Source of the DNA: a virus
Strand: one strand, 5' to 3'
IMG/VR virus record: IMGVR_UViG_3300021440_000075
Location: 1-36,326 of that record
DNA: 36,326 bases
Made by a program: the position numbers and the translations under genes. Below the pieces are notes generated by a model. The model was not told the DNA's origin. It saw only the letters and a program-made list of their open reading frames with translations, and made no database searches. This document shows positions 2,697 through 36,326 of this stretch, one piece after another. How positions within the stretch are numbered: position 1 is the stretch's first letter; each line of letters begins with the position of its first letter.

Positions 2697-2704
2697 GGTG
2701 AAAT

Positions 2705-13482: not shown

Positions 13483-13912
13483 ATTGCATTCCTTCAGCTG
13501 GTTTTACATCATAGAAATAGCCATACTTTTGATAGTTGGCCACTTGGTTGTACAACTCTTCATACGTGTGCACAACCTTGCCTGATGCAGCTAACATAAT
13601 ATTAAACTTAAGCTCAGGCTTCCATCCTAACCATATGTATAGCACTGGCACTCCTTTAGCGAATGCATAACCGCATTCCCATATTGTACCCACATCTTTA
13701 CCATCTGTAACTGCAATAATGTATTTACAGTTGTTGATAGCCATGCAGTTTCCTAACAACACTGTTAATGGGTCGTCCCCTGGCTTCCACAGGTTGGCAT
13801 CCTTAGGCGAGAAGTAATCTACTTCGTTGTCTGACAATACGCCTTTTACTTTTTGTAAAATAGCGTCCTGTTCTTCTGTAAACCAAGGTGCTGCAATGTA
13901 CACTTTACTCAT
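13475..13912 (-). CDS. Nucleoside 2-deoxyribosyltransferase-like protein
   Basis: 145 residues from ATG 13912, which overlaps the upstream stop (ATGA); an earlier start at 13927 lies inside the upstream gene. The Rossmann-like fold of PF05014 is visible: VYIAAPWF at the start, then VTDGKDVGTIWECGYAFAKG with E79 as the probable nucleophile Glu, and FNIMLAAS near the C-terminus. Members exchange bases on deoxynucleosides or, like Rcl, cleave deoxynucleoside monophosphates. Here it sits with HD, ThyX, dUTPase and dCMP deaminase genes and probably reshapes or scavenges the host pool. Exact substrate unknown. Confidence 0.8.
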   Translation of the reverse strand: MSKVYIAAPWFTEEQDAILQKVKGVLSDNEVDYFSPKDANLWKPGDDPLTVLLGNCMAINNCKYIIAVTDGKDVGTIWECGYAFAKGVPVLYIWLGWKPELKFNIMLAASGKVVHTYEELYNQVANYQKYGYFYDVKPAEGMQYE

Positions 13913-14427
13913 AGTGGAATCCCCCATTGTTTTGAAAGTTTGACTAATGTTTCTGCTTGTGCGATGGCGTCACACAGTGCATGGTGGGGCATAATAGGCT
14001 TTGTGTAAGCCGCTGGGCAAAACAGGTTTTTTACTGTACGGAAGCATCTGTTGTTTCGATAAGACCAGCCCTTTATGCCAAGCCGCTTTAAATGATTTTG
14101 TATAATGGCATTGTCAAAATCAACACCGTTGCCCCATACGCATGAATTACCGACAAAGCCTACTAGTTGTTCTAGGCAATCTCTAAGGGGCTTAGCCGTC
14201 CCAGTTGCGAGGGCTTCACGAGCTTCTGTTGTCTGAGTTAGCCACCACTGTACCGTGGCATAATCCATATCACCCTCCCATTGAGGCAACTCATAGAAGC
14301 AGTTTTCTGGATTTAGCAATGGTTCTTTAAAGTCTGTATCTGCACCAAACTTAAAGGCACCAATAGAGACCACGCAAGCATTCATGCCAGTGCCCATTGT
14401 TTCAATATCTAGCATTACATGTTTCAT
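13909..14427 (-). CDS. DnaQ-like 3'-5' exonuclease
   Basis: 172 residues. DEDD-type motifs: LDIETMG (D7, E9), WGNGVDFDNAII in the middle, and HHALCDAIAQAE with the H-x4-D pattern that marks DEDDh enzymes. The layout resembles the short ExoVIII-like/Rv2179c-like exonucleases common in phages. It could trim DNA or RNA ends in replication or degrade host nucleic acid. It is distinct from the polymerase-associated exonuclease at 19953. It ends in ATGA overlap with the deoxyribosyltransferase-like gene. Confidence 0.85.
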   Translation of the reverse strand: MKHVMLDIETMGTGMNACVVSIGAFKFGADTDFKEPLLNPENCFYELPQWEGDMDYATVQWWLTQTTEAREALATGTAKPLRDCLEQLVGFVGNSCVWGNGVDFDNAIIQNHLKRLGIKGWSYRNNRCFRTVKNLFCPAAYTKPIMPHHALCDAIAQAETLVKLSKQWGIPL

Positions 14428-16840: not shown

Positions 16841-17091
16841 TGGTCTACTTCTTCTTTCGTTGATATTACAATGTAATTCAGAGTATGTTTTCTCATTTCT
16901 TTTCCCACATGTTCTTGCATAGGCGATAGCCGGCCAGTTGGGGACTTAGTCTCTATTGCCCAAATTTGTTGGCGTACAAATGCTATTCTATCGGGTACCC
17001 CTTTGTTGCCAGGTGATACCCACTTATAGCATTTGCCGCCTAACTTTTCAACCTGTTGTTTCAGGTATCGTTCGACCGTTTTCTCTAACAT
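16816..17091 (-). CDS. VRR-NUC domain nuclease
   Basis: 91 residues, a stand-alone VRR-NUC domain (PD-(D/E)XK superfamily). Motifs: GVPDRIAF with D34, WAIETKS with E47 and K49, and LSPMQE with Q59, in the order of the family. Such phage proteins are thought to cut branched DNA structures, perhaps acting as junction resolvases with the adjacent helicase. I see no clear ribosome site, and the 33 bases to the upstream cargo gene are AT-rich. The cargo gene (17125-18087) separates it from the Cas4-like nuclease gene. Confidence 0.85.
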   Translation of the reverse strand: MLEKTVERYLKQQVEKLGGKCYKWVSPGNKGVPDRIAFVRQQIWAIETKSPTGRLSPMQEHVGKEMRKHTLNYIVISTKEEVDQWLKIVTG

Positions 17092-17124
17092 TTATTCATG
17101 AACAATCTTTATCTTTTTCTAGCA

Positions 17125-18087
17125 TTATTTTAATTTGTTTAATGTGCTGTCATATAGCAATGATTGAGGATCATATCCCATTTTAATTAAAGTGTCTATA
17201 GGAGAAATATTTTCTAAAGATTTATTAGATTTATTTAATCTATTTTCTATCATTCTAGCTTGTGCTTCATGCGCTGCAGATTGATATATTTCTTTGTAAG
17301 GATTAGTTTGAAAATTATTTAATCTTTTATTGTTAATACCGACTATATTTTGAAGTATATTGAAGTTATCTGGATTATCTAATTCATCTGATAATCTTTC
17401 TAATCCAAATTCATGCGTAGTCCCATTATGCTCTTGTATTGAATGAGTTAGTTCGTGCAACAATGTTTTTAATGAATTTTGATGATTTGTCCCAATATTA
17501 ACAACATCATTTCCTGTAGACATAGAACTAGATAAATAAGAACCTTTTGTGTTTTGAGGTTTAATTTCTACAGATTCAAGATAAGGGTAATTATCGTATA
17601 GTTGTTGATGCGATAAAAACTCTTTAAGTGAGCCTTTTGTTGACATAGGTTTTAACAATTTAGCATTTATATCTGGAATTTCACTTAACATTATTTTTTG
17701 CCCTTTTGCTGTTTCCCATGGGTACATTTTTGTTGCTTTCCAGATTTCAGATAGATTGGAACCTTTTTCTAACATGGATTTTGCTGTATTGGCTAGTTTT
17801 TCTGAATAATCTTTAGATAAAGGGCTCAAAATACTTCCCACAATTCCAGATCCTGAAGGAGCAAAAGGCATACCCCCTGTTTGCGCTAAACCAGCAATAT
17901 TTATAGCTCCCTCAACTTGTGCGTATGGATTATCAGAATACATAGTTTTATCCATATTATTCTTAATAAAATTACTAAGATGTTTTAAAGCATTTAAAGG
18001 GTGATTTATGCTTGATGCGATAGTACTATCACTCGGCTTAAAATTTGATTGTTTAAAATTTTTTACTAATTTATCTAAACTACTCAT
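17125..18087 (-). CDS. LPD23-like zinc metallopeptidase with shared N-terminal sorting-like domain
   Basis: 320 residues from ATG 18087, chosen because CAGGAG sits 8-13 bases upstream, inside the last codons of the Cas4-like gene. Residues 1-87 match the N-terminus of the protein at 28142 (shared DS..SSI.HP, AGL.QTG.MPF, GSI). Residues 105-138 (EIWKATKMYPW ... SEIPD) and the zincin site HELTH (211-215) with AAHEAQAR (271-278, E274 probable third ligand) match the LPD23 peptidase of polyvalent phage proteins. It is AT-rich and sits between two nuclease genes, like an inserted cargo gene. A protein delivered with phage DNA is inferred. Confidence 0.75.
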   Translation of the reverse strand: MSSLDKLVKNFKQSNFKPSDSTIASSINHPLNALKHLSNFIKNNMDKTMYSDNPYAQVEGAINIAGLAQTGGMPFAPSGSGIVGSILSPLSKDYSEKLANTAKSMLEKGSNLSEIWKATKMYPWETAKGQKIMLSEIPDINAKLLKPMSTKGSLKEFLSHQQLYDNYPYLESVEIKPQNTKGSYLSSSMSTGNDVVNIGTNHQNSLKTLLHELTHSIQEHNGTTHEFGLERLSDELDNPDNFNILQNIVGINNKRLNNFQTNPYKEIYQSAAHEAQARMIENRLNKSNKSLENISPIDTLIKMGYDPQSLLYDSTLNKLK

Positions 18088-18089
18088 TT

Positions 18090-18731
18090 TTATCTCCTGT
18101 ATAATGGACAAATGTTTTGTACATGGCAGTACTTACAGTATTGGTTCTTGGTTGGCTTAAATTCTGTATCATTGTGAATCTTGGCCGCCTTTTCATTCCA
18201 TAGCGCAACGTCTTCTTCTAGAGTGTCTCTAGTAAAAGTATAGTCATGCACTTCGCCTGAAGCTAAATACCAAAATTCTATGTGGACTTCCTTTTCATCT
18301 GTTCGTACCATGTGAGCATTAGCATATAACCGCGCTTGATTCACATGCTCCTCATAGTGCTTACCTGTTTTGAAGTCAATCACATAGTTGTCTATTCTAG
18401 CATCTAGCTTCATACGAAGCCATGCATCCTCATGGAACCAACCGTCTGGAATGAACTCCCACTTATCATTAAATGTAAGTGCCTCTTCAGGGATGGCACC
18501 ATGCTTTTTAAGATTCATGAACTCTTTAGAGAACTTTCTAAGTACGGCAGGTACTCCGTCTATATTACCTTTGAGATATTCCTCCGCCATACTGTGTGCA
18601 GTAATACCTTTTGTTAGAAAGTACGACGGAGGTTCTTCAATTTTGTCTATCTTTATACATTTGTACTTAAATGCGCATTGTTCATACAAATTTAATGTAG
18701 ATAGAGACCAACTTGGCTTCTTAATCTTCAT
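18090..18731 (-). CDS. Cas4/RecB-like PD-(D/E)XK nuclease with probable Fe-S cluster
   Basis: 213 residues. N-terminal C19 in LYEQCAFKYK, H46 in GITAHSMAEEYL, the catalytic core LDARIDNYVIDFKTGK (D114, D119, K121) and the Q-x3-YA motif (Q132). The C-terminal CKYCHVQNICP gives C199, C202 and C208, which with C19 fit a 4Fe-4S cluster as in Cas4/AddB. Likely an exonuclease for replication or recombination ends. It overlaps the polymerase gene by 11 bases. Confidence 0.85.
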   Translation of the reverse strand: MKIKKPSWSLSTLNLYEQCAFKYKCIKIDKIEEPPSYFLTKGITAHSMAEEYLKGNIDGVPAVLRKFSKEFMNLKKHGAIPEEALTFNDKWEFIPDGWFHEDAWLRMKLDARIDNYVIDFKTGKHYEEHVNQARLYANAHMVRTDEKEVHIEFWYLASGEVHDYTFTRDTLEEDVALWNEKAAKIHNDTEFKPTKNQYCKYCHVQNICPLYRR

Positions 18732-19956
18732 ATACTTTCATATCTCCAAAGTTAGGCCCTATTTTGCCTTCTGATCTTAAAGGCACGTCCCATCCTGGGA
18801 TATTGTCCATACAATATTTTAGCAATACCATCTCTTGTTCGTAGCAGTCCTCAGGGGCTGATACCACTATTTCATCATGCACTACCAGTACAATACGACC
18901 TTTACGATCAGGATGATAGTAGTATCTATTCATTGCCTCCTTGGTCATGTCGGCGCTGCTACCTTGTATGAGTACATTACCTAGTTTATAGTAAAATTCA
19001 CGTCTACGGCCGTTCACCATAGCAGCTGGTTCTACATCATAAAGGCGGCCTCCCCATGTGCGAATACGTTGCCCACTTCTAGCCATCTTTTCAACAACTT
19101 TCATAAGGTCTTTAAACTCTGGTAAAGCCTCGTCGTATGCTTGAAAGAATATTCTAGCTTGGCTATCAGGTATACCTAACATTAATGCAAGCTTGCCTGG
19201 TCCGCCGCCATATAGTTTTAAGAACGAAATAGTTTTGGTAACTACACGGTTCAACTGCTGGCCTGTAGTGTCCTTTATCATTTGTTGAACCCATGTATGT
19301 ACGTCCAACAATGGGTTTTGCATATATGCTTCAAGTATGTTACCTTCAGCATAGTGCGCAGTTACACGTAACTCCTGGCCATTGAAGTCTCGTTTAATTA
19401 GCATATGCCCGATCTCAGGGTAGACTAATGAACGTAAGTTAGGGGTATCGTCGTCAGGTGGGTTACGTGGCAACTGTTGGAAGTTGGATGACATACGACC
19501 TGTGCGAGTTCCATAGTCGTTATCTCCTCTAGTCTGTTGAAAATAAGGATAGTATCTGCCCTTATACCTTTTGGCAGATGTGGCCATAGGGTTAATGTAC
19601 GTGCCTAAAGCTTTTTGTAGTTTTGAACGTATTTCAAGAACGTGTCTTAGCTCATCATCTTTAATCAAATCAGCTAAGAACTCCCGGCCATAGCGTGGAT
19701 TACCTTTTTCTGTGTACTGTAGCTTAGACTCGTCAATTAACCCTTTCTTTCTGGCAGCAGTAAACCATGCTTTAGTGCCCGGCTCAGCTGGAACAATTTT
19801 AGAGAGATATTTCTCACCGTTGTCAAACTTGTTTTGCCAAAACTGTTGTTGTGCTTGTATAGTAGGAGCAAGCTGGACACCTTGTCTTTCCATGTCGATA
19901 ATGACAGGAATGAGGTCCATTTCTCTTTTATACGCATCTTTAGTTAGATGTTTCAT
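18721..19956 (-). CDS. DNA polymerase I (family A), polymerase domain as a separate gene
   Basis: 411 residues holding only the palm-fingers-thumb part. Landmarks: RTGRMSSNFQQLPR (151-164), motif A IKRDFNGQELR with D190, motif B R237-x3-K241-x3-F245-x3-Y249-G, motif C VVHDEIV with D361. The residue matching E. coli F762 is Phe (F245). No exonuclease domain is present; it is encoded by the gene before, whose TGA overlaps this ATG (ATGA). The polymerase starts at the usual linker between domains, so this looks like a natural split rather than a truncation. Confidence 0.92.
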   Translation of the reverse strand: MKHLTKDAYKREMDLIPVIIDMERQGVQLAPTIQAQQQFWQNKFDNGEKYLSKIVPAEPGTKAWFTAARKKGLIDESKLQYTEKGNPRYGREFLADLIKDDELRHVLEIRSKLQKALGTYINPMATSAKRYKGRYYPYFQQTRGDNDYGTRTGRMSSNFQQLPRNPPDDDTPNLRSLVYPEIGHMLIKRDFNGQELRVTAHYAEGNILEAYMQNPLLDVHTWVQQMIKDTTGQQLNRVVTKTISFLKLYGGGPGKLALMLGIPDSQARIFFQAYDEALPEFKDLMKVVEKMARSGQRIRTWGGRLYDVEPAAMVNGRRREFYYKLGNVLIQGSSADMTKEAMNRYYYHPDRKGRIVLVVHDEIVVSAPEDCYEQEMVLLKYCMDNIPGWDVPLRSEGKIGPNFGDMKVYED

Positions 19957-20501
19957 TTAGCTTCCTCTATAATAGGTATGAAGAAGTTGTAAAGAGCATA
20001 CGTCATATCGACGTCAGCACAAGCATATTTGCCGACTAAATCACCCGGGGCTTTACATATGTATGCGCCCCATGTCTTTTCGGTGGCAGCGGGTACATTA
20101 CGTAGTATCCAGTTCTTCAAATCAGTTTGCTCATCAGGCGGTATGCCGCAATATTTTAAGACGAGGTCTTTAAGCTTAAGTGACTCGTCTCTAGGGTCGT
20201 TCAAATAAGCCATAATCATTGTATCATTAAGCCGCCAAGATGGAACAGGAATGCCAAACCATTCTTCTAATATTCTGTTGTCGAATTTAGCATTATGCAT
20301 AACAATGATATCATCGGTTGAGTTCACAATGTATTCTAACCGTAAATCAGCAGCCTCGAGACTACAGTTGTTTTTCGTAGGATGCCCCCAAGCCAGATAG
20401 TCTGCCGGTTCATCATTAAATTTTATAGCAACGCCTACGGGCTCTGGTGATACATCAGACCCTGGCACAATAGGATAAGTTTCGAAATCAATTGTGTACA
20501 T
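19953..20501 (-). CDS. DNA polymerase I 3'-5' exonuclease domain as a separate gene
   Basis: 182 residues from ATG 20501 (TGATG junction with the gene before). DEDDy motifs: TIDFET with D5 and E7, HNAKFDNRIL in the middle, and YACADVDMTYALY near the end. LKLKDLVLKYCG is also typical of the PolA proofreading domain. It should act with the polymerase encoded directly downstream. The 4-base overlap between the two genes suggests equal production and assembly as one two-subunit enzyme. Confidence 0.9.
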   Translation of the reverse strand: MYTIDFETYPIVPGSDVSPEPVGVAIKFNDEPADYLAWGHPTKNNCSLEAADLRLEYIVNSTDDIIVMHNAKFDNRILEEWFGIPVPSWRLNDTMIMAYLNDPRDESLKLKDLVLKYCGIPPDEQTDLKNWILRNVPAATEKTWGAYICKAPGDLVGKYACADVDMTYALYNFFIPIIEEAK

Positions 20502-20704
20502 CAATGGTCCTCCATTCCTTCGAAGAGAGCATCAAAACAGTCTTCGCAATAGCCTGATATTTTAGTTTCAGTCCAACCTGCTTTTGTATGCACATTGGCA
20601 TCTGAGAATGCCTGGTCACAACTAATACACAACCCTTTTTCCATATTTGACAAAGTAAGACCGGCAATTTTAGCTGATTCTTCTTTTAAGTCTTGTAGCG
20701 ACAT
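20501..20704 (-). CDS. Small Cys-rich (zinc) protein
   Basis: 67 residues with CISC near residue 26 and CEDC near 54, making a four-Cys zinc site around a Trp/Thr/Lys-rich loop. TTTGGAG precedes the ATG. Its stop overlaps the exonuclease start. Position suggests a replisome accessory or nucleic-acid-binding protein; the family is not recognised. Confidence 0.65.
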   Translation of the reverse strand: MSLQDLKEESAKIAGLTLSNMEKGLCISCDQAFSDANVHTKAGWTETKISGYCEDCFDALFEGMEDH

Positions 20705-22555: not shown

Positions 22556-22606
22556 CTCCATAAGTGGGTTGGTCCTACATGTTTGTGTAGGACTTGCTCT
22601 ATGGAG
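22556..22606 (+). promoter_or_regulatory. Two-tier hairpin in the primase operon leader
   Basis: Inner stem GTCCTACA (22572-22579) with TGTAGGAC (22586-22593), loop of 6. Outer stem CTCCATA (22556-22562) with TATGGAG (22600-22606). The outer stem includes the ATG at 22601, so the RNA could hide that start codon. The two perfect stems (8 and 7 bp) are unlikely by chance. A fold switch or a translation control is possible; I do not recognise a known riboswitch. Confidence 0.55.
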
Positions 22607-22867
22607 ATTTCAATTACTTATGATGAGGCTATTATGAATGAAGACGAATTGTCTCATAACTCTTTTTTGGAAGGGTTTGAGGATGGCTATGAATGTGGTT
22701 GTGGTGATCCAGACACAGTTTGGGGATATTCTTTTTCAAGGTATGGGCGATATGAGTCCGTACTATCTGAGTACTATCAAGACTGCTATAACATTGGTTT
22801 TAAGTTTGGCCGGCAAGCCTCTATATGTGACTACAATGACGTCGCCTTAAGAGAGAGTGGCCAATGA
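22601..22867 (+). CDS. Small protein, first gene of the primase operon
   Basis: 88 residues from ATG 22601; ATG 22634 (MNEDELSHNS, AGG before it) would give 77 and avoids the hairpin. Upstream frame to 22529 contains the leader and is not favoured. The protein is acidic and rich in Gly, Tyr and Cys (EDGYECGCGDPDTVWGYSFS), possibly a zinc or protein-binding domain. Its stop overlaps the primase ATG (22864) by 4 bases. Function unknown. Confidence 0.6.
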   Translation: MEISITYDEAIMNEDELSHNSFLEGFEDGYECGCGDPDTVWGYSFSRYGRYESVLSEYYQDCYNIGFKFGRQASICDYNDVALRESGQ

Positions 22868-25074
22868 CATCATTTAAACGTGAAGGTTCCAGTACAGGGA
22901 CAGGAAATGAATATGTAATTGGCGGAGGTATAGGAAGAATATTAGAACGTAACTTCAGGTTTAACCCTGATGGCATACCACAAGAGCTCAAGGATAGAGC
23001 ACAATGGGTTGTATGGGCTCATTTAGAGACGTCTCAAACAGAAGAACAAAAGGCACAAGGTGTACCACCTATTGCAGGAAAACTTCCTGTGTACGTTAAG
23101 AAGATCGATAGAGGGCATCTAGTAGGTCGAGCACTTTGGAGAGATAAGAGCTATTTATTAACATTCGATGAAGCTCTTAGGCGTTACAATGCGCATTCTT
23201 CAGTCATACATGGTGTTGGATTCGTTTTTAGTGACGACGACCCATTTACAGTCATTGATATCGACAAAGTTACAGAGACAGACGACGAACGACTACTGTT
23301 TATTAAAGGCAACACATGGTGTGAAGTTAGCCAGTCTGGCAAAGGTTATCATATTGTAGTTAAAGACGTTTCTGTAGGGACTAAAGTCAATGCAGGTACA
23401 GGAGTTGAGATATACAGTAAAGGCCGGTTCATTGCCATGACGGGTAATGTGAGCATAGGCTGTCCTTTACACATTATTAGCGACCAACAGTTGGTTAATG
23501 ATGTGGTGGTGTACCATACTGCCCATAGTAAGGGCGGGACATTGACGGGAACGAAATACGAAAAGAAGAAGGTAGTGTCTTCGGGTGGCCGAAACAATGA
23601 AATGTTTGCGTTCATTGGCAGCTGTGTATGGAAGGGCTACACAAGAGAACATACAATTGTTGCTTGTAGACAATATAATGATGAATGCTTTGTTCCTCCT
23701 TTGGACGAACAAGAATATCTAAGTATGGTCCATGAGCAATTCAAGAAGGCGTCCAGAGTTGCACAGGATGCGATAGATTCTATACTATTACGGTATGTAT
23801 TGATACGCGATTGTAATCGTTGGTGGGATTTTACACATAAAGTATGTGTCGTGGATGATGCTATCAATAAAGAGCATCAGCATATGTTTAAGGGCACCAA
23901 AGGCGAACTGCCTAAGCTGAACAAGTTCTTATGTGACTCACCTAGTTTGCAAACTGTTACGTCACTAGGTTGGCGGCCGATACCTTGGGGAATGGAGGAC
24001 GACAATTCACATAAGTTTTACAAAATAGACGGCTGTGAGTTTGTCAACACATGGAAAGGCTGGGGCTGTGCGCCTGTGGCTGGAGACGTTAGTGTGTGGT
24101 TAGAACTGTTGACACATTTGGTGCCAGAGGATGAATATCGCCGCCAACTGCTTATGTGGTTATCGTACATGGTGAGGCATCCAGACAAGAAATGCCAATG
24201 GCAAATAGTGTTGTTAGGCGTATCTGGTGCAGGTAAAGACTCATTGTTTAAACCCTTATCTGCTATATTCGGTTCAGCATCTAAACCTATTGGTAATGAA
24301 GACATCAAAGGATCTTATGACGACGGTCTTATTGGCACTAAGTTGCTACATGTGTCTGAAGTTAGAGGGCTACGGGGCGATTCAATTGAGAAGATGAAAC
24401 GGTTTTGTGCTAGTGAAAATACATCGTTGATGATGCTTAACCCTAAAGGTATGACGAAAGTCTACGTAGAGAACCTTTGGTCAGTTGTTATTATAACGAA
24501 CGACTATGGAGCGCTAGCTCTTGATATGAATGAACGAAGGTTTTACGTTTTAAATTCTAGTAAAGTTATGAGTGAGAGCCTTCAGTCGCGCTATTATACA
24601 TGGTTTATGAGCGGTGGTAGTTGCGCGCTTATGCATTATTTGTTGTATGATGTCGATATTAGCGATTTTAATCCTCATCAGTTGCCAGAACGGACCGTAC
24701 ATTTTTATAATATGCATGACTCCACAAGGAATGATATGGAGAGCATTTTAAGTGATATGAATGAAAATAAAGTAGGCTTGTTCTCACATGATTTGATATT
24801 CCCGGACCATGCTTGGAGTATGCTAAGAATGAAGGATGTTATGTGCCCTGCTTCTAAAGTGATGACATGGCTTAAACAGAATGGTTGGGATTCATACAAT
24901 GGCTCGTTTAAGATTATGAAAAAGATGAATGGTGAAGTTAATTGTAAATCGAGGCATTGGCTATACAGGATTGGAGGTGCTTTTGACTATAATATACATA
25001 AAGTTGGTAGTGTTGAAGTGTGGCTCGAATGTGATCGTATAGAGAAATTTGTCACAAACAATGGTAAATTTTGA
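22864..25074 (+). CDS. Primase-helicase: PrimPol-like N-terminus and SF3 helicase
   Basis: 736 residues. Residues about 100-195 show archaeo-eukaryotic primase motifs: VIDIDK (D132, D134), SGKGYH (158-163) and VEIYSKGRFIAMTG. The C-terminal half is an SF3/D5-like helicase (DUF5906-type): Walker A GVSGAGKDS (452-460), Walker B KLLHVSEV, sensor region VVIITND and MNERRFYVL. It unwinds DNA and primes synthesis for the split PolA on the opposite strand block. The iteron cluster starts two bases after its stop. Confidence 0.85.
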   Translation: MTSFKREGSSTGTGNEYVIGGGIGRILERNFRFNPDGIPQELKDRAQWVVWAHLETSQTEEQKAQGVPPIAGKLPVYVKKIDRGHLVGRALWRDKSYLLTFDEALRRYNAHSSVIHGVGFVFSDDDPFTVIDIDKVTETDDERLLFIKGNTWCEVSQSGKGYHIVVKDVSVGTKVNAGTGVEIYSKGRFIAMTGNVSIGCPLHIISDQQLVNDVVVYHTAHSKGGTLTGTKYEKKKVVSSGGRNNEMFAFIGSCVWKGYTREHTIVACRQYNDECFVPPLDEQEYLSMVHEQFKKASRVAQDAIDSILLRYVLIRDCNRWWDFTHKVCVVDDAINKEHQHMFKGTKGELPKLNKFLCDSPSLQTVTSLGWRPIPWGMEDDNSHKFYKIDGCEFVNTWKGWGCAPVAGDVSVWLELLTHLVPEDEYRRQLLMWLSYMVRHPDKKCQWQIVLLGVSGAGKDSLFKPLSAIFGSASKPIGNEDIKGSYDDGLIGTKLLHVSEVRGLRGDSIEKMKRFCASENTSLMMLNPKGMTKVYVENLWSVVIITNDYGALALDMNERRFYVLNSSKVMSESLQSRYYTWFMSGGSCALMHYLLYDVDISDFNPHQLPERTVHFYNMHDSTRNDMESILSDMNENKVGLFSHDLIFPDHAWSMLRMKDVMCPASKVMTWLKQNGWDSYNGSFKIMKKMNGEVNCKSRHWLYRIGGAFDYNIHKVGSVEVWLECDRIEKFVTNNGKF

Positions 25075-25075
25075 T

Positions 25076-25327
25076 GGTAACCACCTTTTTTGAAGCTGGT
25101 TACTGTGGTTACTTGTATAGTGTGCCTAAGTGTTTAAAATTTAACAGGATTTTTGTAATAAAGGAACCAAGTAACCAAGTAACCAGGATTTATTATTATT
25201 AATTTTAAAAAATTTGAAAGTAGTAAAAATTTAATATTTAATTTTAATTTTTTTTAAAATCTGGTTACCTCGTTTTTATTAATAAAATCAAGGCCTTAGC
25301 AAACTATTGAGTAACCACTGGTTACTC
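25076..25327. other. Candidate replication origin: eight GTAACC iterons in AT-rich DNA
   Basis: The 8-mer AGTAACCA (or its complement TGGTTACT), allowing one change, occurs at 25076-25083, 25097-25104, 25106-25113, 25170-25177, 25178-25185, 25262-25269, 25310-25317 and 25319-25326, plus a weaker AGGAACCA at 25162-25169 in tandem. The last two form a perfect 19-bp palindrome (25309-25327). Between 25186 and 25261 the DNA is nearly pure A/T. This is the usual form of an iteron origin with a melting region. It fills the whole gap between primase-helicase and small terminase genes; no ORF fits. Confidence 0.65.
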
Positions 25328-25347
25328 GAAGAAATTTTTTATAAAAA

Positions 25348-25695
25348 ATGGGTAAGAAAATGGATAGTAATGATGTTGTAAGCATAAATCATTTAAGAAA
25401 AATCTTAATCAAAGATAGGAAAGATAGCAACGATTTAAGGGCCGAGAAGGTCCGAAGTGAGCTAGACCCTAGGGCAATGATAGAAGAACTGACTCACCTC
25501 TGCGAGGAGAGCAAAACCTGTAGGCTTGAAGACTTGGAAAGACTCAAGTTCAGAGCAGGGGTAGTGACTACATTGTTAAAGAAATGCTTACCAGACTTAC
25601 GTAGTCTAGAAGTACAAGAGAAAAAGCAATCTCATTCGAAGCTGATACTAGAGTTTCCGGCTATTGATAGTGTAAGCAAAAAAGAGGCGGACTAA
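25348..25695 (+). CDS. Putative small terminase subunit
   Basis: 115 residues, helical and charged. LKFRAGVVTTLLKKCLPDLR followed by SLEVQEK resembles the C-terminal part of podovirus small terminases, and the position upstream of the large terminase agrees. The N-terminal 45 residues are basic and could bind DNA. The ATG at 25348 has no clear ribosome site; ATG 25360 is an alternative. A minus-strand operon and the control region lie between it and the large terminase, which is unusual. Moderate certainty. Confidence 0.5.
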   Translation: MGKKMDSNDVVSINHLRKILIKDRKDSNDLRAEKVRSELDPRAMIEELTHLCEESKTCRLEDLERLKFRAGVVTTLLKKCLPDLRSLEVQEKKQSHSKLILEFPAIDSVSKKEAD

Positions 25696-26581: not shown

Positions 26582-26682
26582 ACTTTCTTTTAGACTTTCT
26601 TTTAGACTTTCTTTTAGACTTTCTTTTAGACTTTCTTTTAGACTTTCTTTTAGACTTTCTTTTAGACTTTCTTTTAGACTTT
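26582..26682. repeat. Tandem array of eight perfect 12-bp repeats before the large terminase gene
   Basis: ACTTTCTTTTAG is repeated eight times without change (26582-26677), followed by a partial ACTTT. One strand is almost pure pyrimidine. It sits 50 bp before the large terminase start. Possible roles are a pac site, a terminase or regulator binding array, or an origin element; a purine-pyrimidine tract of this kind can also form triplex DNA. The absence of any change between copies suggests recent expansion or strong selection. Confidence 0.9.
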
Positions 26683-29056: not shown

Positions 29057-29089
29057 CAGTAGTTAGTGTTAACAACTGGATAATCAATA

Positions 29090-31252
29090 ATGAAACAAAA
29101 AATAGACGACGCATTTGTTCTTTCTGTTATCAGCAATGAAATAGAGCAAACACTGTCGTTTTCTCCGAATAATTTTTCAAGCGGCACATCTATTGACATA
29201 GAGACGCCACTTAACTATTACCTTGGTAAACCTGATGGCACTGAGGTTGAAGGCCGTTCGCAGGTTACCTCTACAGATGTCGCAGACTGCATAGAGTGGA
29301 TTATGCCTTCTGTAATGGAGGCTTTCCTTGGCTCAGCTGATTGCGTTTCATTCGACCCTATTAATCCTGAAGATGAAGAACAAGCGGAGCTGGAAACAGA
29401 GTACGTCTATGACGTTTTAATGAAGAAAAATGATGGGTTTGTTATTCTTCATCAAATGACAAAAGATGCACTTCTACAAAACAATGGTATTAGCAAAGTC
29501 TACTATACAAAAGAAGAAAAAGTTGAAACTGTTTCTTATTCTGGTCTTACACAGGAACAGCTACATTTACTGGTAAATACAAAGAAAGACATAGATATTT
29601 TCTCTTTAAAAGAAGACGTAACCGACTTTGGCACTTTTTATGATGTTCAGTTTAAAAACACTTGCGCCTACGGTAAAATAAATGTTGAGTCTGTACCTTT
29701 AGAGAACATAAAGGTTAACAGTGACCACAATTCTATTAATTTGACAAACGCCAGGTTTGTTTGCCATGAAATGGTCAAGACTTACACTGACCTTATCAAT
29801 TTAGGTATACCTGAAAAAACTATAAAAGACTTGCCTTTTGCTAATAGCTATCGCAATTCGTTTAGGCAAGAAGCTCAGAACGAGTCTGTTTTGAGCTCTC
29901 GTAGCTCTATTGACATGACTATGCAAGAATACGATTTGCAAGAGTCTTACTTATACATGGACTACAATAACGACGGTATTGCCGAGTATGTAAAAGTCAC
30001 TACAGTAGGCGAAGGCACTCCAACGCACCTTATTTCTGTTGAGCCTCTACCTGATGGCTCACCTTGGGTCGGTTGTACCGCTATTTTGATGTCCCATAAG
30101 TTTAGAGGCCTATCTATTTATGATAGAGTAAAGGAAATACAAGACCAATCAACAGCGGTATTGCGCTCCACTTTAGATAATTTCTATCTTCAAAATAACC
30201 AAGAAAAAGAAGTTGTGCAAGCTCTTATTGTTGATATGGACGAGTTGCTTACTTCTACGCCTGGTGGCATTAAGCGTGTAAAGCAAGCTGGTGCTATCAA
30301 TCCTATCCCTGTACAAGCTTTTACAGACTCTCCAATTCTGTTAATGCGGTACTTAGCCGAAATGAAAGCTGGGCGTACGGGCGTTTCTGCTGATGGCCCT
30401 TCTGCGCCTCAAAATATTGGTGACAGAGTAGGTTCACAAGGCGTTGCACAGTTGATGACTGCTAAAGAAGCGCTTTCTGGTCTCATTGTCCGTGTTTTGG
30501 CTGAGACTGGTCTTAAGCCTATTTATATAAAAATTAGAGATTTAGCACATAAGCATATTGATACTATTGAAGACTACAAATTTAAAGGCCGATGGGTTCA
30601 AGTCAATCCTTCTGAGTGGATTCCTAGAAGCTTAACTACTGTAAAAGTAGGCTTAGGCGCTGGTAATAAGCAAGAAAAGCTTGCTGCAATTGGTCAATTA
30701 CAAAGTATACAGGCTACACTTGCTAGCTCTCCATTTACTTACTTGTTAGACGACACCCGTATTTACAACACAATTAACGAATTTTGTAAGCTTTCTGGTC
30801 TTCATTCTGCTTATAAGTATGTGCTAGATCCACAGTCTGATGTTGCAAAGCAGCAAAAACAAATGCAACAACAGTCACAAGCGGAAGCTAGTGCTAAAGC
30901 TGAGCAGGTACAAGTGGCACAAATGCAGATGGAGGCTTCTTTGGCACAAGCTGAGCTTGGCAAAGCTGAGGCTATGCAGCAAAGTGTTAGGTACAAAGCG
31001 GAAGCTGAGGCTAATAAGCAAAAACTTGACTTGGCTAAGCACCAATACGAAGCTAAACTAGCTATTATTGAACAACAGTATGAGCAAATGAAAATATTGG
31101 CAGATGATGCCAATAAGAGTGCTGATATGGAGCTTCGTCATAAAGCTATGGATGTTGATGTATTTAAGACGCTTACTACAGTCAATGCACAAAAAGATAT
31201 TGCATTGATCAATGCTAGCTCAAAAGAAAATAAACCTGGTGAAGCAGCATGA
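29090..31252 (+). CDS. Portal protein
   Basis: 720 residues, in the range of P22-like and other podovirus portals. The N-terminal 100 residues (PLNYYLGKPDG, then SQVTSTDVADCIEWIMPSVM) and the wing region followed by the stem are typical. The last 140 residues (about 575-715) are a long Gln/Ala/Glu-rich helix with repeated AQxE-type steps, fitting a barrel. Twelve copies form the vertex through which the terminase pumps DNA. The stop overlaps the next ATG (ATGA). Confidence 0.9.
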   Translation: MKQKIDDAFVLSVISNEIEQTLSFSPNNFSSGTSIDIETPLNYYLGKPDGTEVEGRSQVTSTDVADCIEWIMPSVMEAFLGSADCVSFDPINPEDEEQAELETEYVYDVLMKKNDGFVILHQMTKDALLQNNGISKVYYTKEEKVETVSYSGLTQEQLHLLVNTKKDIDIFSLKEDVTDFGTFYDVQFKNTCAYGKINVESVPLENIKVNSDHNSINLTNARFVCHEMVKTYTDLINLGIPEKTIKDLPFANSYRNSFRQEAQNESVLSSRSSIDMTMQEYDLQESYLYMDYNNDGIAEYVKVTTVGEGTPTHLISVEPLPDGSPWVGCTAILMSHKFRGLSIYDRVKEIQDQSTAVLRSTLDNFYLQNNQEKEVVQALIVDMDELLTSTPGGIKRVKQAGAINPIPVQAFTDSPILLMRYLAEMKAGRTGVSADGPSAPQNIGDRVGSQGVAQLMTAKEALSGLIVRVLAETGLKPIYIKIRDLAHKHIDTIEDYKFKGRWVQVNPSEWIPRSLTTVKVGLGAGNKQEKLAAIGQLQSIQATLASSPFTYLLDDTRIYNTINEFCKLSGLHSAYKYVLDPQSDVAKQQKQMQQQSQAEASAKAEQVQVAQMQMEASLAQAELGKAEAMQQSVRYKAEAEANKQKLDLAKHQYEAKLAIIEQQYEQMKILADDANKSADMELRHKAMDVDVFKTLTTVNAQKDIALINASSKENKPGEAA

Positions 31253-31506
31253 TTAATTATGAACAGCTAGTTGTGACAGAGTATATGCGATATACTGAAA
31301 ACTTTGGTGCTATCTCTATGAAACAACTAGAACAGCCTATCAAATCGCTGACAGATATGCACTCACAAAACAATGAAGCAGTTATGCAACAAATTAGTGA
31401 TCTTGCAAACACTGTGCAAGGACTACACGAATCAGTAAATAGACCTCGTATTAAAAGACCAATACGTGATGAAAATGGCTTAATAACGCATGTTATAGAG
31501 GAATAA
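31249..31506 (+). CDS. Small head-operon protein, helical
   Basis: 85 residues, starting in the portal stop. Helical, with Gln/Asn-rich heptads (about 25-60, MHSQNNEAVMQQISDLANTV) and a basic stretch (RPRIKRPIRDENG) near the end. Many phages carry a protein of this size after the portal; its role is unknown, perhaps in assembly. Confidence 0.6.
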   Translation: MINYEQLVVTEYMRYTENFGAISMKQLEQPIKSLTDMHSQNNEAVMQQISDLANTVQGLHESVNRPRIKRPIRDENGLITHVIEE

Positions 31507-31507
31507 A

Positions 31508-31939
31508 ATGGCTTCTACTAGTTTTACAAACTTAACAAGAAACTTATGTATCGCAAGGCATAACTTTTCTAGTGACACATTAAAAGTTTTGCTTGTTTCA
31601 AGTATACCATCTGAAGCAAACTTAGACGCATGGATTGCTCGTTCTGACGTTACTAATGAGATAACAGGAACAGGCTATACTGCTGGTGGTATTGCGCAAG
31701 CCTATACGTTCAACACAATAGACACAACTAACAATAGAAATACTCTTACGCTAACAAATATTGTTAATGGCTGGACTGCTGCTACGTTTAGTGCAGTTGG
31801 AGCTATTGTCTACAAAAATAGTGGTACGAACACAACTGACTATCTTGTTGGGTTTATTGATTTTGGTGGCACTGTAACTGCTTCTGCTGGTAATTTCAGT
31901 ATCACATATACAAGTGATATTCTTGTGACTAGAGTATAG
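31508..31939 (+). CDS. Virion surface-type protein, beta-rich
   Basis: 143 residues, Thr/Asn/Ser-rich and beta-stranded throughout. LKVLLVSSIPSE, GTGYTAGGIAQAY and a WTAATFSAVGAIVY segment recall a widespread phage structural protein found near fibre genes. Probably a decoration or fibre-attachment protein. It is separated by one base from the previous stop and two bases from the next start. Confidence 0.6.
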   Translation: MASTSFTNLTRNLCIARHNFSSDTLKVLLVSSIPSEANLDAWIARSDVTNEITGTGYTAGGIAQAYTFNTIDTTNNRNTLTLTNIVNGWTAATFSAVGAIVYKNSGTNTTDYLVGFIDFGGTVTASAGNFSITYTSDILVTRV

Positions 31940-31940
31940 T

Positions 31941-32306
31941 ATGCCTCGTTTCTCCGATAGAACCAAGGAAACGACGACAACCACTGGAACTGGAACAGTC
32001 ACGCTATTGGGTGCAGTTAGCCAGTTTGATGCGTTTACTGCTGATTTTGCCGTTGGTGATACTCAGATACCTTATGCGATCGTTGGGCAGACTGGGACTG
32101 AGTGGGAAACTGGCTATGGTACGTTAGTCACGTCTAGTACGCTAAGCCGCGATCAGGTAGCCGAGTCATCAAATGCAAATGCCTTAGTTAATTTCAGTGC
32201 AGGAACTAAGGATGTATTTGTTACGATTCATGAGCACATTGCTAACCAGCTGACCGAACTAGGTTTAGCTAATGCCCTTTCAATGGGCAATGTCCCATTA
32301 ATGTAG
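31941..32306 (+). CDS. Fibre-module structural protein
   Basis: 121 residues. The pattern RTKETTTTTGTGTVTLLGAV, then AIVGQTGTEWETGYGT, TLSRDQV and FSAGTKDVFVT is one I associate with small phage fibre- or tail-associated proteins of the beta type. It lies in a run of five structural genes between portal and scaffold. A receptor-binding or trimer-capping role is possible but not shown. Confidence 0.6.
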   Translation: MPRFSDRTKETTTTTGTGTVTLLGAVSQFDAFTADFAVGDTQIPYAIVGQTGTEWETGYGTLVTSSTLSRDQVAESSNANALVNFSAGTKDVFVTIHEHIANQLTELGLANALSMGNVPLM

Positions 32307-32313
32307 GAATATT

Positions 32314-32757
32314 ATGGCAGCAAATAATTTACCAATGTACGTTAAAGCCGTTAGCAATAGCTCAACGGGTGGCAGTACCAAGACTTTTTCAGCCAAGATA
32401 ACGCTTGCAGCCAATGACTTTGATGGCACAAATGCTAACAATGTCTTAGTCGCGACAATGGACAGTACAAATGGTTCATTCTTGCTGGGGTTCATGTGCA
32501 AAGCTAACGGTACAAACGTTGCATCAGTGGCACGTATGTTCCTGAACAATGGCTCGACTAATGCAACAGCGACAAATAACACGTTTCTGAGCGAATTACC
32601 CTTGCCTGCGACGACAGCTGCAGCAGCGGGTATCACCTCTAACGATATTTGGTGGGCTATCAACAGACCATTTGAACCGGGCACTAAAATATACATCGGC
32701 TTAGGTACCGCCGTTGCTGCTGGCTGGCAGTTTATTCCGTTCTACGGGACTTACTAA
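32314..32757 (+). CDS. Virion structural protein, beta-rich
   Basis: 147 residues, rich in Asn, Thr, Ala and Gly, with alternating hydrophobic strands. YVKAVSNSSTGGSTKTFS at the start and PGTKIYIGLGTAVAAGW at the end fit a surface beta domain. It overlaps the next gene by one base (TAATG). No family recognised; probably part of a fibre or decoration complex. Confidence 0.6.
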   Translation: MAANNLPMYVKAVSNSSTGGSTKTFSAKITLAANDFDGTNANNVLVATMDSTNGSFLLGFMCKANGTNVASVARMFLNNGSTNATATNNTFLSELPLPATTAAAAGITSNDIWWAINRPFEPGTKIYIGLGTAVAAGWQFIPFYGTY

Positions 32758-33698
32758 TGTCAGCACCTATGTATCTGCCCGGCTATGGCATGAATACGGA
32801 TGTATTCTATGCTACTGCGCCTTCTAGTACACAGAGGCACTTGCAAATATGGCATAAGCCACGTAACAAGACCATGGCGCAATTTGTCCTGGTCGGTTGC
32901 GGTGGTAATGGCGGTAATGGCGCGATTGGTGCAAACAGCACAGCAGCAGGAGGAGGCGGTGGTGGCTCTGGTGGCGTAAGTATACTCACTGTGCCATTGA
33001 ATTTCCTGCCGCCAGTGCTTTACATCAACGTGATGCAAGGCGGTGGCGCGGCTGCATCGTATATATCGGTGACATCCAATACGCCCACTACCAGCCCCAC
33101 AGCATCCTATTTACTGTTAATCGCTAACAGCGGCGGTAATGGTGGTAACGCTGCTGGTGCAACAGCTGGTGCTGCTGGTACAGCGGGTGCTGTTGCTACT
33201 ATTGCCAACAATATTCTTGCTGGCTGGGGTAACTTTAACTTTATGGCTGGTCAGTTGGGTATTATCGGTGGTGTTGCTGTTGCGGGTGGTGCGTTAACGT
33301 TGCCTACCTCCGGCGCATGTACAACCGGAGGTACAGGTGGTGGCGGCTTGCCTGCTGCTGCTACGGCTGGCACAAACGGCGGTATGATTAACGGGTCTGC
33401 TCAGACAGGTTCTCCGTATGAAATTGGTAACCGACTCGGCGGCGTTGGCGCTGCTGCTGCAACGACCCCAGCAGGTTCTGGTACGCCAGGGGTTGTAATG
33501 GGCAATCATTATTTTCTAGGCGGCACAGGCGGCGGCTCTACGCACGGTACGGCGACAGGCGCAGGCTTAGTGCAATCCAATGGTGGCGATGGGGCTTACG
33601 GGTGCGGCGGTGGAGGCTCAGGCGGCGCATTAACTGGCTCGGCAGCTGGCAAGGCTGGTCGTGGTGGCGATAGCATTTGCTTTATAACTACCTGGTAA
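32757..33698 (+). CDS. Glycine-rich fibre/adhesin protein
   Basis: 313 residues. After about 40 ordinary residues, Gly makes up a large share, with runs such as GGGGGGSGG and GCGGGGSGGA. Long glycine runs between short hydrophobic strands are the sign of polyglycine-II sandwich folds in receptor-binding adhesins such as gp38 of S16-like phages. The protein ends in RGGDSICFITTW, a compact beta tail. This region is clearly richer in G+C than the flanking genes. Likely receptor-binding tip. Confidence 0.65.
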   Translation: MSAPMYLPGYGMNTDVFYATAPSSTQRHLQIWHKPRNKTMAQFVLVGCGGNGGNGAIGANSTAAGGGGGGSGGVSILTVPLNFLPPVLYINVMQGGGAAASYISVTSNTPTTSPTASYLLLIANSGGNGGNAAGATAGAAGTAGAVATIANNILAGWGNFNFMAGQLGIIGGVAVAGGALTLPTSGACTTGGTGGGGLPAAATAGTNGGMINGSAQTGSPYEIGNRLGGVGAAAATTPAGSGTPGVVMGNHYFLGGTGGGSTHGTATGAGLVQSNGGDGAYGCGGGGSGGALTGSAAGKAGRGGDSICFITTW

Positions 33699-33699
33699 T

Positions 33700-34686
33700 A
33701 TGAATTTAGGATTTAACTCACTTGGCGAATCTCCATTAAGCACCCTAACTACTGTAGGGTCGTCTAATAATGGTAATGCGAGTGCTAGTCTATTTTCAGT
33801 CACTTTGTCTGGAGCATCTGGAAATGCTAGTGGGAGTGCTAGTGCATCTGGTGCAGGATTCGAAGTACAACTAACTGGTAGTAGTGGCTCTGCGTCTACT
33901 GCTACTAATGGTAATGCAAGCGGTGCAGGATTTAGCGTACAGCTTACGGGTAGTAGTGGTAGCGCTTCTGGAACTACTAATGGTTCCGCTACTGGCGCAG
34001 GCTTTAATGTACAGATAACAAGTGCTAATGGTACGGCATCTACTTCTGCTAATGGTAGTGCAAGTGCGGCAGGGTTTGAAGTACAGCTAACAGGTGCGAG
34101 CGGTAATGCTTCTACAGGGGTAAATGGTAGCGCTACAGGCTCAGGGTTTAATGTACAAATAACAGGAAGCAGCGGGACTGCTTCTAGTAGTGGCAGTGCA
34201 AGTGGTGTTGGTTTTAATATACAAATCACGGGTGCTAATGGCAATGCGTTTACAAACTTAAATGGTAATGCGTCTGGTTCTGGTTTTGGCATATTGATAA
34301 CAGGCAGTGATGGTACTGCCTCAGATGGTTCAGGAATACAACAAGACACTAAAGGAATAAGCGGCAAGAAACACGTTACTTATGTAAAGCGTGAAAAACA
34401 GCAAGAAGTAATAAAACTGAGACCTGAGGAAATAGACCAACAGGTTTACAATCTATTATTTAATGAAGCAAAAGAGGTAATTAAAGATGCAAACATTAAG
34501 ACTTCTAGCATTGACGTTCTTGCTGATTCCGTGGTGTCTGATGTTATTGATAAGTTTAGTGAGACTCAAGCCGCTGTATCACGAGAACAAGCGTTAGAAG
34601 AAGCACGTCTAAATGCACAAAGAATTATTGATCAGTATTTAGAGATGCTTCGAAGAGAAGATGAAGAAATTTTATTGTTATTATAG
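33700..34686 (+). CDS. Fibre-like protein with eight 24-residue repeats
   Basis: 328 residues. Residues 32-212 contain eight units of 22-24 residues with the pattern F-x-V-Q-[LI]-T-G-x-x-G, then A-S and N-G-x-A-[ST]-G-x-G; the Phe of each unit falls at 32, 54, 78, 102, 126, 150, 172 and 196. That is the look of a beta-solenoid or a fibrous shaft. From 222 on the protein is charged and helical with a coiled coil (ending MLRREDEEILLLL). No signal peptide. Probably a virion fibre, with the helical tail anchoring it. I know no family with this exact repeat. Confidence 0.7.
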   Translation: MNLGFNSLGESPLSTLTTVGSSNNGNASASLFSVTLSGASGNASGSASASGAGFEVQLTGSSGSASTATNGNASGAGFSVQLTGSSGSASGTTNGSATGAGFNVQITSANGTASTSANGSASAAGFEVQLTGASGNASTGVNGSATGSGFNVQITGSSGTASSSGSASGVGFNIQITGANGNAFTNLNGNASGSGFGILITGSDGTASDGSGIQQDTKGISGKKHVTYVKREKQQEVIKLRPEEIDQQVYNLLFNEAKEVIKDANIKTSSIDVLADSVVSDVIDKFSETQAAVSREQALEEARLNAQRIIDQYLEMLRREDEEILLLL

Positions 34687-34695
34687 GGGACTGAT

Positions 34696-34842
34696 GTGGA
34701 ATTAGAAGAAGCTTTGTACGAACTTCATGAGACTGGAGGCTTTATCCGTAGAAAAGTCTGGGACTCCGCTGTAGATATTTCTCTTGAAGATGCTATTGCT
34801 AGTGATTGGGAAGTTGTTGATTATTCAGAGGATGATGAATAG
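34696..34842 (+). CDS. Tad2-like (DUF2829-type) miniprotein, GTG start
   Basis: 48 residues from GTG 34696, after AGGGGA. The sequence holds LEEALYELHETGGFIRRKVW (EAL...RRxxW motif), then ISLEDAIASDWEVVDY, which matches the ends of the Tad2/DUF2829 family: EAL-x-L, an Arg-x-x-Trp core and a final DWEV. Tad2 sequesters the cyclic ADPR signal of Thoeris defence. Here the middle loop of the family is missing, so ligand binding is uncertain. Its stop shares a G with the next GTG (TAGTG). Confidence 0.55.
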   Translation: MELEEALYELHETGGFIRRKVWDSAVDISLEDAIASDWEVVDYSEDDE

Positions 34843-35117
34843 TGTCGCTTTCATCTAAAAATGACTGCGCTAAGGCTATGGCACTTGCTAAGAAAGCAGA
34901 AGGTGCGTACTCTTATCTTTTGGATATCATTGAAAAATACAAGGATGACTTGCTAAATGACTTTATTCACACTAAAGTTGATTTAGACGAAGATTTTATG
35001 GTGCTTTGTCCCATAAAAAGACGTTTTGATGCTTTGCTTGACCTAAAAAATATGGTAGAGTCGCATATTAATGACGGTAAAGTAGCTCAAAAAATGATTG
35101 ATAAATTTGATTCCTAA
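34842..35117 (+). CDS. Hypothetical helical protein, GTG start
   Basis: 91 residues from a GTG that overlaps the previous stop. Helical, with Lys/Glu/Asp and a central LDEDFMVLCPIKRRFDALLDL. No motif. It sits directly before the scaffold gene (9-base gap) and might help in head assembly, but that is only context. Confidence 0.6.
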   Translation: MSLSSKNDCAKAMALAKKAEGAYSYLLDIIEKYKDDLLNDFIHTKVDLDEDFMVLCPIKRRFDALLDLKNMVESHINDGKVAQKMIDKFDS

Positions 35118-35126
35118 AGGTGAGTT

Positions 35127-36173
35127 ATGTTCTGGTTAAAAAATAGATTGCAAAACTTAGAAGACGGTCAAGGTAGTTCGCTTGATTCTGTTTCTAGTAT
35201 GGACGACATGGCAGAATTTCTTGTTAATGTCGACGGCTTAGACAACGAGTTGCCTATTGATGACAAAAAAGAAGATGTTGAAGTCATTGATAAAAAAGAC
35301 GAAAGTACTGATGAAGAAGTCACATGGGGCAAAGCTCTTGGTATTGACGACTCAGCTGTTGTTCTCGATGACACAGGCAATTTAAAAGCTGTAAAAGTAA
35401 AAGTTGATGGGCAGGAAGAAGAAGTTGCGCTCAAAGAACTTGTTTCTGGTTATCAGTTTAATAAGCATAATACTCAAAAAAGTCAATTGTTAGCCGAAGA
35501 AACAAGACAGTTTAAAACTGCTGTTGAGCAAACAACTAAGCAATACACTGATAAGCTTGATTCTCTTGAAAAAGCTACTGCTTATGTTAAAGGGCAGTTT
35601 TTGAAGCAGTACGAAGATGTTAATTGGTCTTTAATAAGACAACAGAACCCTGCTGAGTATGCTGCATTAGTGCAAGATTTCCAAATGCAGAGTGCAGAGT
35701 TTGATAGAATATTAGAAGTTGTTGCTTCTACTAAAAATGCAGAAGCCGAACAGCTTCAAAACGAGTTTCAAGAAGGTCAAAGACAATTGCATCAAAGGCA
35801 AATTGAATTGACCTTAGAAAAAAATCCTGAGTGGAGAGATCAAAAAGTTCTAAAAAGTGCACTCGAAGATTTAAGTTCTTTTGCAGGAGAAGCCTATGGC
35901 TTTACGCCTCAAGAATTTGCATCAATTAACGATCATCGCATGATAGAAGTGCTTAAAGATGCCATGAAGCTCAAGCGTGGAGTTAAGGAGGCTGAGCAAA
36001 AAATTGTTCAGCAAAAGCCTAATTTCCAAAAACAAACAAGTCTAAAACGCAACAATGTTTCGCACTTAGACAAACTAATTAAACGCGCAGCTTCATCGAC
36101 GGGTACACAAAGACGCGCTGCTGAAACTGACGCTATTGCACAATTACTTATTGATACTGGAGTAAAAACATGA
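35127..36173 (+). CDS. Capsid scaffolding protein
   Basis: 348 residues, acidic, Gln/Glu/Lys-rich and helical. Disordered acidic N-terminus (about 1-70), then KVKVDGQEEEVALKELVSGY (about 92-111), a module common in phage scaffold proteins, then coiled coils (115-230) and a basic C-terminus (KLIKRAASSTGTQRR), as expected for binding to capsid shells. The capsid ATG lies inside the TGA of this gene (ATGA), which matches the usual scaffold-capsid order. No protease motif is seen. Confidence 0.8.
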   Translation: MFWLKNRLQNLEDGQGSSLDSVSSMDDMAEFLVNVDGLDNELPIDDKKEDVEVIDKKDESTDEEVTWGKALGIDDSAVVLDDTGNLKAVKVKVDGQEEEVALKELVSGYQFNKHNTQKSQLLAEETRQFKTAVEQTTKQYTDKLDSLEKATAYVKGQFLKQYEDVNWSLIRQQNPAEYAALVQDFQMQSAEFDRILEVVASTKNAEAEQLQNEFQEGQRQLHQRQIELTLEKNPEWRDQKVLKSALEDLSSFAGEAYGFTPQEFASINDHRMIEVLKDAMKLKRGVKEAEQKIVQQKPNFQKQTSLKRNNVSHLDKLIKRAASSTGTQRRAAETDAIAQLLIDTGVKT

Positions 36174-36326
36174 GTACAGCTAACTTAGACGCAGCTGATT
36201 TAAGAACGGTTGCTAGAGGTGGTCTCATCCGTGAGGATGTAATGAACAAGATTTGGGATATCTCAAAAATCCCATTGCCATTTACTGATATGATCGGAAC
36301 TGATAGTTCTACCCACCCATATAAAG
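36170..36326 (+). CDS. Major capsid protein, N-terminal part (cut by window end)
   Basis: The frame from ATG 36170 stays open to the end: 52 residues starting MSTANLDAADLRTVARGGLI. The segment IREDVMNKIWDISKIPLPFT resembles the N-terminus of SU10/DUF5309-like HK97-fold capsid proteins (REDL...IYNI...TPF). Order after scaffold supports this. The rest lies outside. Confidence 0.7.
   Translation, partial: MSTANLDAADLRTVARGGLIREDVMNKIWDISKIPLPFTDMIGTDSSTHPYK

Follow-up and report, generated by a model that had tools for sequence, protein, structure and literature searches.

The window analysed here, a virus record of 36,326 bases, has a 273-base gap (nt 25075–25347) between the stop of a primase-helicase gene and the next ORF, and this gap is probably an iteron-type origin of replication, with the primase-helicase as the protein that would bind and open it. 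We infer the binding, the melting, the priming site and the origin activity from the comparisons given below. Origins with this layout have been demonstrated in other mobile elements, and the array of short repeats in the gap is most likely the place where replication starts. An iteron-type origin had been proposed in the initial annotation of this DNA, and it is still the best supported reading, because the same anatomy is found after homologous genes in phage NrS-1, in the nearest full-length relative (L144), in 25 of 89 PrimPol genes surveyed, and in the tested element EcCICFT073. No prior description of this phage was found among the publications listed.

The repeat array and the AT-rich block

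In the ORF list of the window the primase-helicase stop ends at nt 25074 and the downstream ORF begins at nt 25348. The array had been placed directly after the stop codon, and it does start there, at nt 25076. A motif search of the window returned nine matches to AGTAACCA at not more than one mismatch between nt 25076 and 25326, six of which are exact; no other exact copy occurs in the 36,326 bases. Eight close copies in both orientations had been reported earlier, in agreement with the finding that GTAACCA is intact in eight sites of the gap (nt 25077, 25097, 25106, 25171, 25179, 25262, 25311 and 25319), four on each strand. This count, within 252 bp, compares with a maximum of four for any 7-mer with at least two G/C in the same length when the window was simulated 30 times with a first-order Markov model. 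Across the window as a whole the motif shows no excess (27 matches to AGTAACCA at up to one mismatch, against 34 expected), so the signal of the array is its clustering, and the case rests on that. As for the three copies previously described as tandem, two are good sites at an 8-bp pitch, but the third is degenerate and has no counterpart in the close relative L002. The features of the region are listed in Table 1.

Table 1. Features in and around the gap that follows the primase-helicase gene (positions are those of the window).
Feature	Position (nt)	Strand	Remarks
88-aa ORF, probable operon partner	22601–22867	+	overlaps primase start; equals part of P0003, from an internal Met
Primase-helicase, 736 aa, proposed initiator	22864–25074	+	domain, sequence and structure matches
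Iteron 1	25076–25083	+	GGTAACCA; L002 has AGTAACCA here
Iteron 2	25097–25104	-	AGTAACCA
Iteron 3	25106–25113	-	AGTAACCA
Degenerate copy	25162–25169	+	AGGAACCA; absent from L002
Iteron 4	25170–25177	+	AGTAACCA; 8-bp tandem with iteron 5
Iteron 5	25178–25185	+	AGTAACCA
AT-rich block, proposed melting region	25189–25260		69 of 72 bases A/T
Iteron 6	25262–25269	-	GGTAACCA
19-bp palindrome	25309–25327		iterons 7 and 8; scores also as terminator-like hairpin
Iteron 7	25310–25317	+	left arm of 19-bp palindrome
Iteron 8	25319–25326	-	right arm of 19-bp palindrome
P0002, 115-aa ORF, putative small terminase	25348–25695	+	L144 homologue directly precedes TerL-like gene

The nearly pure A/T stretch noted between the copies contains three G/C in 72 bases (95.8% AT) and is the AT-richest 72 bp of the window, the next-richest reaching 84.7%. 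Five iterons lie 5' of it and three 3', so that it is flanked by two sets. The palindrome said to be formed by two of the copies is exact (GAGTAACCA-C-TGGTTACTC, 9+1+9). The minimum of the cumulative GC skew, at about 20–22 kb, was considered as an origin marker and set aside, as it falls where the genes change strand and says little.

The primase-helicase and origins of related initiators

The proposed initiator consists of an AEP PrimPol domain, a PriCT-1/helix-bundle region, an SF3/D5-type DUF5906 helicase and a C-terminal helical region; among the Pfam matches, PriCT_1 scores just over the cut-off and DUF5906 above it. At the sequence level it matches the NrS-1 polymerase in both halves, and the SaPI5 primase-helicase over the PrimPol part (E 1.3e-7). 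An AlphaFold model (mean pLDDT 74, pTM 0.50) was compared with solved structures by fold search, and matched 6k9c (NrS-1; Z 24.8, rmsd 5.9 over 356 residues), 7rr3 (NrS-1 PrimPol; Z 17.0, rmsd 2.3 over 162 residues) and, with residues 259–685, 7om0 (SaPI5 primase-helicase; Z 18.1, rmsd 7.8). According to the model, no solved structure comes closer over both halves than that of the NrS-1 primase-polymerase. Helicases of poxviruses and ASFV also match the helicase fold, but are uninformative on the type of origin. Near the C-terminus, residues 677–715 are modelled at pLDDT below 50, so that the model does not show a DNA-binding domain.

Two candidates for the protein that binds the iterons had been put forward, the primase and its 88-residue operon partner. 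Our analysis makes the primase-helicase much the likelier, because it resembles the NrS-1 polymerase and the SaPI5 primase-helicase, and because in SaPI Rep and SCCmec Cch2 helicases of this kind bind downstream iterons with their C-terminal domain (available text of PMC7581432). The partner has no Pfam or PHROG match, and nothing found favours it as the iteron binder. The window also encodes a PolA-type polymerase on the minus strand (nt 18721–20504), as two overlapping ORFs of 183 and 411 aa that match successive parts of phrog_17. Since this separate polymerase is present, the PrimPol is probably a primer and opener rather than the main polymerase. Other genes on that strand specify a DNA helicase, a ligase and nucleotide enzymes, and nt 10949–14427 (minus) carry a dCMP deaminase, a dUTPase-like, a dATP triphosphohydrolase-like and a nucleoside deoxyribosyltransferase gene in a run. 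The portal protein is kin to those of podovirus-like phages.

In PICIs, according to the available text of PMC6092414, the initiator gene is followed immediately by the origin, in which an AT-rich region lies between two iteron sets; plasmids of EcCICFT073 require both primase and ori, and replication stops if either is lost. The detector used for the window finds 11 GGTAGA sites in EcCICFT073, on both strands and directly 3' of the primase. The window resembles the PICI/SaPI systems, as described there, in the position of the origin immediately 3' of a primase/helicase initiator gene and in the two iteron sets around an AT-rich region, and further in the SF3/D5-type helicase of the initiator, the SaPI5 structure matching the model. 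As far as sequence can tell, every testable feature of a PICI/SaPI-type pri-rep-ori origin is present. The differences are that PICIs and SaPIs are satellites whereas the window belongs to a podovirus-like phage that encodes a PolA of its own, and that the iteron letters are not the same, those of the window being AGTAACCA, with a predicted origin function.

For SaPI Rep and SCCmec Cch2, the accessible part of PMC7581432 reports binding of downstream iterons by the helicase C-terminal domain, and the CCPol-MP primase begins at iterons. The Cch2/CCPol-MP system is thus similar to the origin proposed here in its short iterons downstream of the gene and in the mode of binding, but its primase and helicase are separate proteins and its iterons are three copies of AAGTG; in the same part of that source its replication in vivo is not demonstrated. 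ORF904 of pRN1 is likewise a PrimPol-SF3 initiator with an origin just downstream of its gene. In contrast to the window, what the available portion of PMC4234260 describes as that origin is not an iteron array but a stem-loop, which lies downstream of orf904 and for which a stem of 21 nt and a loop of 58 nt are predicted at 75 C.

In NrS-1 (AB746912.1), 11 GTGTAAC sites are located at nt 17062–17371, directly 3' of the primase stop at nt 17051; eight sites there contain GTAACC, and both strands are used. The available text of PMC8718748 and PMC7102993 contains no description of this array. The hypothetical CDS NRS1_29 (nt 17055–17456) covers most of it, and for this reason may not be a real gene. 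NrSPol begins synthesis without a primer at TTTGGTTA (available text of PMC8718748). An exact search found one copy of this sequence in NrS-1, on the minus strand at nt 17198 and within the GTGTAAC array, as against two copies in the genome centre mentioned, together with a possible origin, in the accessible part of PMC7102993. The overlap of the priming site with the array is not claimed here as new. In the window there is no exact copy of TTTGGTTA in the array, the sole copy being at nt 6697, and CTTGGTTA, one mismatch away from it, is found on the minus strand at iterons 4–5. Similarities between the two phages include the best structural match of both protein halves, an array directly after the stop codon with sites on both strands, and a common GTAACC core. 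They differ in overall protein identity, which is about 24%, in the longer iterons of NrS-1 (AAAGTGTAACC, with 12 bp spacing in the tandem part), and in that NrSPol is described in the available sources as the phage's own replicative polymerase, whereas the window has a separate PolA. Kazlauskas 2018 (PMC5862659) assigned the NrS-1-like primases to the PrimPol family; iterons are not mentioned in the available part of that paper.

Conservation and distribution of arrays

A near-identical primase (98%) was found in one contig only (L002 and L013). Iterons that are lost from close relatives had been named as a result that would count against the origin, and in this single close relative all eight are kept. 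Between L002 and the window, 2 of 64 iteron bases differ, compared with 21 of the 209 other bases of the gap; of the two iteron differences, one is toward the consensus and one is a gap in a T run. An extra conservation of the iterons is only suggestive in this comparison (one-sided Fisher P 0.06). In L006 and L007, two contigs with the same sample number, the structural DNA is 94% and 92% identical to nt 29086–36210 of the window and the replication genes differ, a pattern that points to an exchanged replication module. In L006 the primase is of the RepB type, and six AGAACA sites, distributed over both strands and surrounding AT-rich DNA, come directly after its gene; this contig was counted in favour of the origin reading as a case of 94% identical structural DNA joined to another initiator with a different array of its own. 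Against the origin reading, no array follows the DUF3854/DUF5906 primase of L007, nor does one follow the phage primases of L003, L005 and L141, which are more distant. In L011 (portal 57%) two genes on the opposite strand make up the primase, and the gap preceding a P0002-like gene holds TACTCA/GAGTAC sites. The separate primase and helicase genes of this contig occupy nt 2366–4745 (minus), the primase gene showing a 9-bp in-frame repeat near nt 4147–4187.

The nearest full-length relative of the protein, in L144, shares 32% identity with it. The gap after its gene carries AGTACTCA sites, three of them in tandem at the 8-bp pitch also seen in the window, and the gene order is primase, array, P0002 homologue, TerL-like gene. 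Between L144 and the window, six of the eight positions of the 8-mer are the same. By itself this agreement is weak, since 6% of random octamers agree as well when rotation and strand are allowed for.

A protein-profile survey fetched 146 PrimPol loci (80 of 549 viral, and 66 genome loci). One of these (L143) was excluded as the same contig as L002, as were 14 of the remaining 145, in which the ORF is not closed, and those with ORFs below 640 aa or less than 800 nt downstream; this left 89 genes whose ORFs reach 640 aa or more and are followed by at least 800 nt of sequence. An array was defined as one hexamer in at least six copies within 300 bp. Arrays were present downstream of 25 of the 89 genes, upstream of 3 of 86, and inside 2 of the 89 ORFs, and at a threshold of at least eight copies the counts were 15, 0 and 1. 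In the shuffle control, in which a single one of ten shuffles at the threshold is enough for a locus to be counted, 3 of 89 loci had an array at six copies and none at eight. After clustering at 60% protein identity, 22 of 73 clusters have a downstream array, against two upstream and two inside the ORF. The remaining 64 of 89 genes have no array at the six-copy threshold, which counts against the origin reading. Consensus sites vary between families and are mostly found on both strands. The commonest exact hexamer is GGTTAC, present in 3 of the 22 dereplicated positive families (the window and NrS-1 left out), and as a universal core it was rejected, most of these families carrying other letters. 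In the families compared, the letters of the iterons drift, yet GGTTAC recurs in distant ones.

A blind scan from the DNA side collected viral contigs with three close copies of GTAACC (at least 120 loci), with the reversed motif CCAATG as control. At least five copies within 300 bp were seen in 65 of the 120 listed GTAACC loci, compared with 30 of 120 for CCAATG, and noncoding arrays with at least two sites per strand in 21 of 120 listed loci, compared with 2 of 120 in the control. Among these 21 listed arrays, eight are preceded by an ORF of 500 aa or more that ends less than 1 kb away, while in none does such an ORF begin beyond the array. All eight ORFs match primase/helicase families, including TOPRIM, PrimPol, VapE and DUF5906 types, and a primase/helicase match is likewise seen at two more of the 21, L056 and L102, where the ORFs are cut by the end of the locus; the assignment covers these ten arrays, with L063 among the other 11. 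Direct comparison with eleven primase queries matched 3 of the 120 listed GTAACC loci.

Alternative readings and proposed mechanism

The main rival explanation, although an unlikely one, is that the repeats are binding sites for the putative small terminase P0002, in a pac or cos region. P0002 has no PHROG match and looks like a small terminase by its position, its L144 homologue lying directly before the TerL-like gene; an array between primase and terminase genes is also found in NrS-1, L144, L145 and L262, and one noncoding GTAACC array of the blind scan (L063) has a terminase large subunit gene nearby, in a locus with no primase match. The array, however, stays with the primase when the neighbouring genes are different (RusA in L006, an ERCC4-type nuclease in L151, a sigma factor in L157, a methyltransferase in L176), and the PICI origin is followed by a small ORF and SSB. 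The window, moreover, has another array directly before TerL, a perfect 12-bp tandem repeat of ACTTTCTTTTAG (8.4 copies, nt 26582–26682), which is found in L002 and L008 too. In L007, 9-bp GCATTTAAA repeats and three 100-bp repeats occur 5' of a terminase-like gene. It is possible that these repeats before the terminase genes, in the window and in L007, are a packaging site.

It is similarly improbable that the gap is an origin of the pRN1 type, at which the primase-helicase would recognise a large stem-loop and not duplex iterons. A stem of 19 pairs with a 52-nt loop is predicted in the gap, the single-stranded fold pairing iterons 2 and 3 with iterons 4 and 5 (9+10 bp), the fold of the whole gap has an MFE of -38.2 (z -4.4), and the pRN1 origin is a stem-loop in the available text of PMC4234260. 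Such a fold, however, follows by construction from inverted tandem iterons, and sites 1, 6, 7 and 8 are outside the stem. In L002 a deletion beside iteron 3 (TTACTTG to TTACTG) shortens the stem beyond the iterons, which are themselves kept. Control of transcription, with the repeats as operators and the palindrome as terminator of the primase transcript, is very unlikely, since apart from a terminator-like hairpin formed by the palindrome and the T-rich DNA after it (one found, 0.2 in shuffles), promoter-like sites are at shuffle level (3 vs 2.7), and a single operator needs fewer than eight two-strand sites spread over 250 bp around an AT block. The palindrome may serve both as an iteron pair and as a terminator.

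In the iteron-origin reading, copies of the primase-helicase would bind duplex DNA at the eight AGTAACCA sites, probably via the region C-terminal to the SF3 helicase, and would assemble on the iteron groups on both sides of the AT block. The block would then be melted and the protein loaded as ring helicases, after which the PrimPol half would prime the exposed strands, possibly from the iterons themselves, and the PolA-type polymerase encoded on the other strand would extend the primers. A more tentative idea, which we consider possible but doubtful, is that one protein reads the iterons twice, in duplex form through its helicase part, to open the origin, and as single strand through its PrimPol part, which would prefer them as the sites of first priming. 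Recognition of the template by the primase would in that case hold the GGTTAC core across distant initiators while the flanks drift. Double reading would fit NrS-1, because the measured priming site is already inside the array.

To our knowledge, few phage origins are known outside the model phages. Judged by the sequences compared, the array is ordinary in kind, and the comparative pattern is unexpectedly broad. The survey results point to the gap behind a PrimPol-helicase gene as a good place for predicting origins from sequence only, and suggest that initiator and iterons move jointly as an exchangeable cassette. The overlap of priming site and array in NrS-1 makes it testable whether one repeat may serve both for helicase loading and for the start of primers.
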